From assembly GCA_021323915.1 (NCBI GenBank), contig JAJPKB010000463.1, positions 1 through 42,793 of the forward strand: 42,793 nucleotides of DNA. The letters run 5' to 3'. Below the pieces are notes generated by a model that was not told the DNA's origin, ran no database searches, and worked only from the letters and a program-made list of their open reading frames with translations. Made by a program: the position numbers and the translations under genes. Each line of letters opens with the position of its first letter. Within the stretch, counting starts at the first letter, position 1. Origin of the DNA: Chloroflexota bacterium. Lineage in GTDB: Bacteria; Chloroflexota; UBA6077; FW602-bin22; CADDYW01. Shown in pieces: positions 11,782-27,451 of this stretch.

Positions 11782-11954
11782 GCCGACGCTTACAAGTTGC
11801 GCTTGAGTGCGCACGTGCGCTCGGGCACCCCGACGTGGCTGGAGTCGACCCGTCAGCGCAGATGGCGTTGGCTGCTGTCGCGATCCTACGGGAGTCTCAG
11901 GTTCTTGCTCCAAGGGAGGATGCAGAGTGGGACTCAGACGCTCGGTGGAGAGTC

Positions 11955-13934
11955 GTGAATTCAATCACCCCTTCCCCGCACCGGGCTCGACGGCGCTCCG
12001 AGGGGTCGTCGGCTGTCCTGGTATCAAACCTCACGTCCGCGGTTCCCTCACGGGTTCTGGGCCACGCGGTGGTCGTCGCGCTCTGCCTGGCGGTGGCCTA
12101 CGTCGGTCGGGCCGGTAACCTGGCGGGTTCCACCGGTGGCTGGTCGGTTCAACAGGCGATGTTCCAACCGTCGGCCTTTGCCTTTCCCGAGGCGTCCAGT
12201 CCGGACACTCTCGTTCGTCCACCAATGACTAACACCTCGGAGGCGTCTTCGCAACGCCTGCAGATCATGCACTACGACGTTCAAACCGGCGACACCATCA
12301 GCTCGCTGGCGAACAAGTTCGACATCAGCGAGAACACGATCATCTGGGCGAACGATCTCACGCCGGACCAGGCGTTGACGCCCGGGCAGCAGGTCACGAT
12401 CCTGCCGGTGTCCGGTGTCATCTATACCGCACGCAGCGGAGATACCCTCGACGCCATCGCCCAGCGCTTCCAATCGGACGCGGCCTCGATCGCCGAGTTC
12501 AACCAGATCTCGGTCTCCGCGCCGGTGACCGCCGGCGCCCAGTTGGTCATCCCCGGAGGTCGGATCGAGGATAGCACGCGACCGGATCTCAGCTCCCGGT
12601 CGTTCACCCGACCGGATCGAACGGGCATGGGGAATCGGGCCACCGACAACCCGGCACCCGCGCTCGCGTCGCCTAGTCAGCTGGTCGCGCTCGGGAGCGA
12701 CGCGGGAGCGATCAGCGCGGCCGATCACGTCCCGTACCGGGACCGCAAGCGGGTCGCTCCTCCGAAACCACTGGCTCCGGTGGTCTATTACGTCGTCGAC
12801 GGAGATACCCTGTCGTCGATCGCCCAGCACTTCGGCGTATCCGAGGACAGCATCGCCGCCGCCAGCGGCCTGCAGGGCAACGAAGACTCGCTTTCGATCA
12901 ATCAGAAGCTGCTGATTCCACCGGTTCCGGGCGTACTTCACGTCGTTCAGAACGGCGACACCCTTCAGGGCCTTGCCGATCGCTACTCCGCCGATCCGAA
13001 CGCGATCGCCAAGGCCAACGGCTTGAAGGATCCGTTCACCCTCCAGATCGGACAAACCCTGGTCATTCCGGGCGGCAAAATACCCGAGATCGCTCCGCAG
13101 GCGCCCGCGGCGCAGACGAGCTACACGGTGACCGAAGGCGACAGCGTTTCCAGTATCGCCAACGCGTTCGGCGTCGACATGCAGTCGATCATCCAGGCGA
13201 ACGGACTGACCGATCCGTACCTGCTGCAGCCGGGTCAAACAATCGTGATACCGGGGGTCAGTCAGGCTCCCAGCAACCCGGCGCCATCGCCGCTTGGGCC
13301 GCACACGACCTACACCGTCCAGCAGGGCGATAGTCTGTCCCAGATCGCGGACTCGTTCGGGGTGAGCCTCGACAAGCTCATCGGGGCGAACAGCTTGCGG
13401 GATCCGGCGAGCTTGCAGCCGGGCCAGCAACTCGTCATCCCCGGCGTTGGCCACGTCGCCGCGGCGACTCGCCCGGCTCCCGCGCCGGTCGTCCAGGCCT
13501 CGGCCCCGGCCCCACGGCCGCGGCCAGTGGTGGCTCAGGCGGCTCCGGCCCGCTCCTCCGGCGGAGCCGGGTGGAGCATCGTCGCGGTCGCCTCGCGATA
13601 CCTGGGCACGCCGTACGTCTGGGGTGGGACCTCGCCCGGCGGATTCGATTGCTCCGGGTTCGTCTGGTACGCCTACCAGCGCGCCGGCATCCCGATCCCC
13701 CGCGATATGTGGGGCCAGCTCCAAAGTGGCACCCGGGTATCCCGGCGCAACTTGCTCCCCGGCGACATCGTCTTCTTCGGTGGCACCTACGAAGCGGGGC
13801 TCTCCCACGACGGGATCTACATCGGCGGAGGGCGCTTCGTCAACGCCGTGGACTACGGCATCGGAGTTGCCGTCAGCAACCTGAACGACGCGTACTGGTC
13901 GAGCCACTACTACGGCGCCACGCGTCCCTGGTAG
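11955..13934 (+). CDS. Secreted cell-wall hydrolase: six LysM repeats plus NlpC/P60
   Basis: A 659-residue protein with one N-terminal membrane segment (VVVALCLAVAYVG, about residues 36-50) acting as signal or anchor. Six LysM repeats follow, each with a GDT/GDS core (for example VQTGDTISSLANKF, VQQGDSLSQIADSFGV) and ending in a (I)IPG-like strand. A Pro/Ala linker leads to a C-terminal NlpC/P60 domain with Cys566 (FDCSGF) and His618 (LSHDGIYIG). LysM binds peptidoglycan and NlpC/P60 cuts peptide stems, so this is a D,L-endopeptidase-type autolysin. The start is uncertain: GTG 11955 has GGAG close upstream; GTG 11835 and ATG 11862 are in frame but lack ribosome sites. Monocistronic or linked to the next two genes. 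Confidence 0.92.
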   Translation: MNSITPSPHRARRRSEGSSAVLVSNLTSAVPSRVLGHAVVVALCLAVAYVGRAGNLAGSTGGWSVQQAMFQPSAFAFPEASSPDTLVRPPMTNTSEASSQRLQIMHYDVQTGDTISSLANKFDISENTIIWANDLTPDQALTPGQQVTILPVSGVIYTARSGDTLDAIAQRFQSDAASIAEFNQISVSAPVTAGAQLVIPGGRIEDSTRPDLSSRSFTRPDRTGMGNRATDNPAPALASPSQLVALGSDAGAISAADHVPYRDRKRVAPPKPLAPVVYYVVDGDTLSSIAQHFGVSEDSIAAASGLQGNEDSLSINQKLLIPPVPGVLHVVQNGDTLQGLADRYSADPNAIAKANGLKDPFTLQIGQTLVIPGGKIPEIAPQAPAAQTSYTVTEGDSVSSIANAFGVDMQSIIQANGLTDPYLLQPGQTIVIPGVSQAPSNPAPSPLGPHTTYTVQQGDSLSQIADSFGVSLDKLIGANSLRDPASLQPGQQLVIPGVGHVAAATRPAPAPVVQASAPAPRPRPVVAQAAPARSSGGAGWSIVAVASRYLGTPYVWGGTSPGGFDCSGFVWYAYQRAGIPIPRDMWGQLQSGTRVSRRNLLPGDIVFFGGTYEAGLSHDGIYIGGGRFVNAVDYGIGVAVSNLNDAYWSSHYYGATRPW

Positions 13935-17773: not shown

Positions 17774-17810
17774 AAAAAAAGGCGCGCTCGGGATGATTAT
17801 CCCGAGCGCG
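17774..17810 (-). terminator. Strong intrinsic terminator of the minus-strand RNA
   Basis: Perfect 12-bp stem (17783-17794 with 17799-17810) and 4-nt loop. On the minus strand it is followed by seven T residues (17774-17780). On the plus strand no T-run follows, so it is oriented for the transcript coming from 18376-18404, though the hairpin may also help stop mrp transcripts. Confidence 0.92.
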
Positions 17811-18148
17811 TGAAGTGAACTGCCTGCCGGCGCCCTGTAGCTTGGTAGCCCTACCTCGCCGACTTTGTTGCCCTTACCCGCGCCGTCTCGCGCGCCCCCA
17901 CGCTGAAGCGGCCGAGGGCCACCGGCTTACCGGACACCCGGCGGTCAAGCCGGGGGCCGGCCCCATCACCAGCGGGAGACCTGCTCGTGGCCTGTGGGGA
18001 GGAACTAAACCACCTCACGAGCTTTCACGTCCTTGCTCTCACGCCCACTCTGAGCGGCATGGTTCTGGATGGGCGCCGAGGGCGGCTGGCCACTTTGACG
18101 CTGGTAATCGCTGTAAATCAGCTTCGTCGCTAGCCAGCCTCGGGGGAG
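17811..18148 (-). ncRNA. Candidate structured noncoding RNA downstream of the c-di-AMP riboswitch
   Basis: About 340 nt between two intrinsic terminators on the minus strand, with no start codon plus ribosome site leading a plausible protein. Stems I can see: 18138-18143/18076-18081 continued by 18133-18137/18086-18090 (enclosing a multibranch); 18070-18075/18042-18047; 18016-18022/17983-17989 with inner 18010-18013/17994-17997; 17949-17954/17937-17942; 17930-17933/17922-17925. Comparison from memory with RNase P RNA, tmRNA, SRP and 6S RNA gave no match. It would be the downstream part of a transcript starting near 18369. An alternative is an overlong decayed leader whose gene was lost, but the intact terminator argues for a kept transcript. 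Confidence 0.55.
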
Positions 18149-18182
18149 AAACAAAACCCAGAGGGCCATCGCGCCTTCCGGG
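18149..18182 (-). terminator. Riboswitch-associated intrinsic terminator
   Basis: On the minus strand a 10-bp stem (18173-18182 with 18157-18166, one mismatch and one G-T pair) and 6-nt loop are followed by TTTTGTTT (18149-18156). It lies 26 nt after the aptamer, where ligand-controlled termination would act in this riboswitch class. Confidence 0.8.
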
Positions 18183-18208
18183 CTGCAATGACGTTACCCT
18201 CTTCACCA

Positions 18209-18349
18209 CGCCGACGGAGTTAGCTGCAGGGTTCGGCTTTGAAGAGTAGCCTACCGAGCGACGGCCCAGCCTTCACGGAGCCGTTCACTCGGATTCACCC
18301 CAGTCACTTGGGTCCCCCGTTCTCGCCTGATCGGCGAGATTAGGCGGCT
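18209..18349 (-). promoter_or_regulatory. ydaO/yuaA-type c-di-AMP riboswitch
   Basis: Read on the minus strand, it carries the class's conserved blocks in order: CGCCTAATCT, then GAACGGGGGACCCAAG, GGGGTGAATCC, GGTAGGCTACTC, GCCGAACCC and CAGCTAACTCC, closing with GTCGGC that pairs with the 5' GCC(G). These line up closely with the Bacillus ydaO leader as I remember it. The variable hairpin (around AACGGCTCCGTG...) sits in the expected place. Such riboswitches bind two c-di-AMP molecules and usually turn off potassium-transport or cell-wall hydrolase genes. Here the nearest downstream feature is a terminator and then the gene-less segment 17811-18148. Confidence 0.95.
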
Positions 18350-18375
18350 AACGATCTATTCAATTGTCTGGTGGA

Positions 18376-18404
18376 ACTATAGCCGCTTCCAATCGCCGTG
18401 TCAA
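18376..18404 (-). promoter_or_regulatory. Sigma-70 promoter of the riboswitch RNA
   Basis: On the minus strand TTGACA (18399-18404), a 17-bp spacer and TATAGT (18376-18381), a near-consensus promoter. The transcript start near 18369 is about 20 nt before the aptamer. The promoter sits in the 3' gap after the sugar permease gene, so the RNA is an independent unit. Confidence 0.85.
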
Positions 18405-26940: not shown

Positions 26941-27451
26941 CCAGGGGCTGGGGGTGAAGCCCGCGTCCGCCTTTACCCTTTTGCTGCTTCTCCTGGTCGG
27001 CCTGGTCGCCGTTCTAGCGCTGCCCCGGCCGGCCTATGCCGACGACCCGCTCGCGACGAAAGAGCTTCAAGTCGAGCAGCAGCTTGGCTGCCCGATCTGC
27101 ACCAACCTGCCGCTCAACGTGTGTGACAACCAGCTTTGCCAGGAGATGCGCGGGGTGATTCACCAGAAGCTGAGCGAGGGTGAAACGCCGGATCAGGTCG
27201 TCGCCTACTTCGTCAGTCGCTACGGCGACGCGGTGTTGCTGTCGCCTCCTCAGCGCGGATTCAGCCTTGCCGCCTGGTACCTGCCGTTCCTGGCACTCGC
27301 GGCCGGCGCGGTCGTCTTTCTCGCCTTTCTCAAGCGAAGCCTTCGGCGCCAGAAGGTCGTCGAGCGGCGCTTCGCGTTCGGGGATCCCGCTCTCGACCAG
27401 TATCGGCAGCAGGTGCGCCGTGACCTCGAGAAACTGGAGGATTCACGGTGA
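26927..27451 (+). CDS. ccmH: CcmH-type apocytochrome thiol-disulfide protein
   Basis: A 174-residue protein: signal/anchor (about 16-36), a CcmH domain with LGCPIC (Cys55, Cys58; usually LRCxxC), then two extra cysteines (Cys66, Cys71) in PLNVCDNQLCQEM, followed by SEGETPDQVVAYFVSRYGDAVLLSPP and a second membrane helix (about 107-128). It should hold or reduce apocytochrome cysteines for the CcmF complex. TTG 26927 overlaps ccmF and has GAGGGGG 6 nt upstream. Two extra cysteines could form a second redox pair or a metal site. Confidence 0.92.
   Translation: MKWDDQGLGVKPASAFTLLLLLLVGLVAVLALPRPAYADDPLATKELQVEQQLGCPICTNLPLNVCDNQLCQEMRGVIHQKLSEGETPDQVVAYFVSRYGDAVLLSPPQRGFSLAAWYLPFLALAAGAVVFLAFLKRSLRRQKVVERRFAFGDPALDQYRQQVRRDLEKLEDSR

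Follow-up and report, generated by a model that had tools for sequence, protein, structure and literature searches.

A c-di-AMP riboswitch that very likely controls a structured noncoding RNA with a duplicated domain in an order of Chloroflexota

A few riboswitches are known to control an RNA rather than a protein gene. EutX of Enterococcus faecalis and Rli55 of Listeria monocytogenes are small RNAs under B12 riboswitches and carry ANTAR elements that sequester EutV (PMC7602753). A trans-acting riboswitch controlling PrfA has been described (Loh et al. 2009, cited in PMC7266159), and in that system the terminated SAM riboswitch itself reportedly acts. Tandem riboswitches are also on record, tandem c-di-AMP aptamers among them, and termination at high c-di-AMP has been described for the c-di-AMP class (both PMC9481103). 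A c-di-AMP riboswitch controlling an RNA instead of a protein gene was not found in the literature searched; since most subscription journals were outside that search, the missing paper is weak evidence.

The window is a stretch of 42,793 nucleotides from a Chloroflexota bacterium (G000), a member of a bacterial group with little known regulation. It was compared with its relatives G001, G002 and G003, which with G000 are the four genera of family f1, with G004 and G005 of family f2, and with G006 of another family. An earlier note on the minus strand of the window had listed a near-consensus promoter (18376-18404), a ydaO-type aptamer (18209-18349), an intrinsic terminator (18149-18182), 338 nt without a credible reading frame (17811-18148) and a 12-bp terminator hairpin with seven T residues (17774-17810), the whole converging on mrp without a gene of its own. 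All of these claims held, the aptamer being slightly wider than listed and no frame being conserved among relatives; what the note had missed is that the 338 nt hold two copies of one conserved domain, named D1 and D2 here.

The promoter, of the sigma-70 type (TTGACA-17-TATAGT, 18376-18404), agrees with the consensus at 11 of 12 positions and is the only such promoter found in a scan of the minus strand. Shuffled sequences average 0.1 equally good matches per region, and the interval from terminator 1 to D1 held nothing promoter-like in the scan. In each of the six other genera the equivalent position upstream of the aptamer has TTGAC and a -10-like hexamer. Searched with RF00379, the check that the earlier note had named, the aptamer spans 18194-18356 with 83.2 bits (E 4.9e-18), above the gathering score of 38 that defines membership, and is one of three RF00379 aptamers in the window genome. 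Terminator 1 (18149-18182), the expression platform, consists of a GC hairpin (18182-18157) and the T tract TTTTGTTT. The final intrinsic terminator (17774-17810) has a 12-bp stem (hairpin 17810-17783) followed by CCTTTTTTT with its seven T residues, and a hairpin occupies the equivalent site in the other three f1 genera. It ends before the stop codon (17763) of mrp, which is the next gene and convergent to the RNA unit. These elements are present in the DNA itself, and the locus is very likely a dedicated unit in which a c-di-AMP riboswitch controls a structured noncoding RNA, the ligand response and the long transcript being inferred. Elsewhere in the window, about 4 kb away and without an aptamer of its own, lies a gene for a LysM-repeat protein (11835-13934, plus strand) whose C-terminal part resembles, by eye, an NlpC/P60 cell-wall hydrolase. 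Genes for NlpC/P60-type cell-wall hydrolases are frequent targets of c-di-AMP riboswitches.

The 338 nt between the terminators contain two copies of one structured domain, D1 (17981-18084, minus strand) and D2 (17824-17920, minus strand). D1 is recognised by the covariance models R1 and R2 and is supported by covariation; in f1 it is enclosed by a 10-bp helix (18108-18099 paired with 17974-17965). R1 was trained on first copies only and nevertheless matches 17814-17938 (E 1.4e-8), from which it follows that the RNA carries both copies; R2 finds D2 with E 9.6e-14. Two R1 matches each were also obtained behind the aptamers of G004 and of G005, and G002 likewise has two. No family of Rfam 15 reaches its gathering score on D1 or D2, and a search extended to E 10 returned only snoRNA models far below their cut-offs. 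Among the four f1 genera identity is 84-94% in D1, 67-75% in the aptamer and 23-61% in the linkers.

In the structure alignment A5, which holds 13 copies of the domain, 99.0% of the cells in helices P1 (5 bp), P3 (7 bp) and P4 (4 bp) are compatible with pairing, the corresponding value for shuffles being 86.9%, and compensatory changes on both sides occur in 11 of the 16 pairs, against 4.7 in shuffles. None of 500 shuffles reaches any of the five covariation measures, and when the partners are slid along the alignment pairing falls to 34-50%. Kinship among sequences inflates such scores. Against this, the changes observed here come from three families as well as from two paralogous copies, and pairing in the slid controls is far lower. 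By single-sequence folding most copies also form a hairpin, P2, in a roughly equivalent position. Some unpaired letters are conserved too, both in the paralogues and at the seven loci with an aptamer: CGG behind P1, AA ahead of the 3' arm of P1, ARAG ahead of P3, AG and AG flanking P4, and CA behind P3. The P4 loops vary between copies in length and letters. What the domain conserves above all is its compact, base-paired fold. Covariation, and the absence of a conserved small protein in related genomes, had been named beforehand as tests of the 338 nt, and both predictions were met.

A DNA search of 13 genomes of the order found the 338-nt stretch directly behind a c-di-AMP aptamer in G001, G002 and G003, and a fragment of it in G006. 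In the alignment promoter, aptamer, terminator 1, core and final terminator follow one another in constant order. The model R1, built on the core, added matches behind aptamers in G004 and G005. Aptamer and D1 together are thus found in seven genera of three families within one Chloroflexota order, in three gene neighbourhoods, and the architecture of the proposed unit recurs in all seven. D2 is recognisable in five genera (G000, G001, G002, G004 and G005); its position in G003 is occupied by strongly diverged sequence, and a second copy was not found in G006. In all four genera of f1 the unit converges on mrp; in G004 and G005 it follows alr (alanine racemase), and in G006 it lies between a fumarase-like gene and a roadblock-domain gene, the latter downstream and in the same direction. 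The RNA unit moves as a whole, and no neighbouring gene is common to all loci. A clear T-tract terminator after D2 is missing in G004 and G005. All seven genomes encode a diadenylate cyclase domain.

In a sample of 400 Chloroflexota genomes the domain was confined to this order apart from one match in G157, which was taken for chance and lies in sequence read by eye as coding and glmS-like. A strict pattern search of 84,980 species gave 18 stretches, of which those scoring well by model all came from the six known relatives; no copy of the domain was found in viral contigs. Two side observations concern other loci. G007 has nine c-di-AMP aptamers in all, two of which are divergent and about 280 bases apart (G007:C67:26560-26694 and 26971-27104; L004, L026). 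Behind the RNA in G004 and G005 a small proline-rich ORF appears, by eye, to be conserved (L052:3748-3953 and L054:2886-3078); in G005 a TTGACA promoter lies so near its ATG that, again by eye, the mRNA would be nearly leaderless.

The 3' strand of the aptamer pseudoknot, AGAGGG (18197-18202), is a possible antiterminator strand, being complementary to CCCTCT (18165-18160) in the 3' arm of terminator 1. The same complementarity is found in G001, G002 and G003, so that the window and f1 have an expression platform that could use the 3' strand of the aptamer for alternative pairing. For G006 the search for complements gives a later site, yet the 3' arm of the terminator there also reads CCCTCT by eye. 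Switching is not clear in f2, where the antiterminator match of G004 is merely short and a clear terminator 1 is lacking in G005. The complementarity suggests an OFF-switch layout, in which ligand stabilises the pseudoknot and thereby the terminator; that c-di-AMP turns the RNA off is inferred and not shown, as there are no ligand or expression data. In the proposed mechanism transcription would start near 18369. With c-di-AMP bound, the pseudoknot would hold AGAGGG, terminator 1 would form and a leader of about 220 nt would result. At low c-di-AMP, AGAGGG would pair with the CCCTCT of the terminator and RNA polymerase would read through and stop only at the 12-bp terminator, giving a predicted RNA of about 595 nt with both D1 and D2. 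The long RNA would most likely act in trans, much as EutX/Rli55 do, through domains that bind a protein or perhaps a small ligand. The suggestion of the earlier note, a structured regulatory RNA whose level c-di-AMP may set by way of read-through, is supported by the covariation, by the lack of a conserved small protein and by the recurrence in seven genera; ligand response, long transcript and regulatory effect remain inferences.

G004 also has the domain at two stand-alone sites, each with a single copy and no c-di-AMP aptamer; these may be leaders or paralogous small RNAs. One (G004:C19:287077-287182; L070:1501-1606) lies upstream of an ORF without a Pfam match; behind the other (G004:C29:50845-50936; L085:1501-1592) stand an intrinsic terminator and a gene whose xylose isomerase-like match is weak. 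The model search found no stand-alone copies in other genomes. Weak matches in G001, G002, G003, G006, G008 and G012 were treated as chance; the two whose surroundings were inspected (G003 L106, G002 L108) overlap long ORFs. If the G004 copies are leaders, the switched RNA could serve as a decoy for whichever factor recognises them, just as EutX/Rli55 do for EutV. As a bolder reading it is possible that D1/D2 is a new protein- or ligand-binding RNA domain and the switched RNA a two-site decoy, which would connect a regulon with the c-di-AMP level; leaders of that regulon may contain the element too, a possibility to which the pair of stand-alone copies in G004 would point. The decoy idea is a lead only, because stand-alone copies were seen in G004 alone.

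The most serious of the rival explanations, itself unlikely, is a base-pairing RNA whose exposed D1 P4 loop GUUCCUCCCC, resembling an anti-Shine-Dalgarno sequence, would pair with target mRNAs at their ribosome-binding sites. Although unpaired, this loop is preserved in f1 and G006, but it is not preserved in G004 and G005, and what the domain mainly conserves is its compact paired structure. Moreover, the 28 sites with GGGGAGGAA before an ATG in the four f1 genomes include no convincing shared target, the only similar pair being a doubtfully coding 47-codon frame found in G001 (L123) and in G002 (L112). This frame starts behind GGGGAGGAA, is 85% identical between the two and may be noncoding DNA conserved for another reason. 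Less likely still, D1-D2 could be a cis-acting leader or tandem riboswitch for a gene that lies downstream in some genomes, without a function in trans. In its size and degree of conservation the domain resembles a riboswitch aptamer; the unit of G006 has a gene downstream, and of the stand-alone copies in G004 one precedes a terminator and a gene. Against this, the next gene in four genera is the convergent mrp beyond a strong terminator, so that the gene in the same direction which a leader requires is absent there, and no downstream gene is common to the families.

The remaining three explanations can be all but set aside. That the locus is an orphan riboswitch whose gene was lost, with the 338 nt as decaying intergenic DNA, agrees with the lack of a gene downstream; it is contradicted by a D1 more conserved than the aptamer and by covariation across three families, and was rejected on these grounds. 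A small protein encoded in 17811-18148 could be sought in the ORFs of 54 to 56 codons that are present, but the relatives have one-base indels in the conserved core and no frame stays open in more than one of the four f1 genera; a protein is therefore not the reason for the conservation. An antisense regulator of mrp would fit the convergent arrangement in all four f1 genera. However, the final terminator precedes the mrp stop codon and mrp is not a neighbour in the other two families, and because the neighbourhood changes this was rejected as the conserved role.

The reading preferred here, a long structured RNA switched by c-di-AMP with a role of some kind in trans, is considered likely (probability about 0.72) in the absence of transcript, ligand or partner data. 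Its narrower form, that the domains bind a protein or ligand and so act in trans, is inferred without partner or binding data and could equally well prove wrong. Points against the main reading are the diverged D2 of G003 and the one not found in G006, the unclear switching in f2, the lack of a clear T-tract terminator in G004 and G005, and the roadblock-domain gene in the same direction in G006. If correct, a new domain more conserved than its own aptamer would extend c-di-AMP signalling beyond direct gene control to control through a regulatory RNA.

Compared with the known systems, the unit shares with the c-di-AMP (ydaO/yuaA) riboswitches of RF00379 the aptamer and a terminator-type expression platform, and differs in standing before a noncoding RNA where these normally precede a protein gene. 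With tandem riboswitches (PMC9481103) it has in common repeated structured domains in one leader, but D1 and D2 match no known aptamer and no gene downstream is shared. The riboswitch controlling PrfA is likewise a riboswitch-derived RNA acting elsewhere, whereas the proposal for the window is a long read-through RNA with conserved domains of its own. In EutX/Rli55 a riboswitch and terminator control a trans-acting small RNA with protein-binding elements, and the ligand ends transcription early (PMC7602753). The layout in the window corresponds to this, with riboswitch and terminator followed by a noncoding RNA that has a terminator of its own; for the element in leaders of target genes, the only candidates are the two stand-alone copies of G004. 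The ligand is B12 there and c-di-AMP here, and in place of ANTAR elements there is a two-copy domain that looks unrelated, although no comparison with an ANTAR model was made, and that has no known partner. The RNA family is absent from Rfam, and the riboswitch-controlled small RNA as a kind is already known. EutX/Rli55 are the nearest precedent for the window unit, and its ligand, its RNA and its duplicated domain are new for that kind as far as the searches reach.
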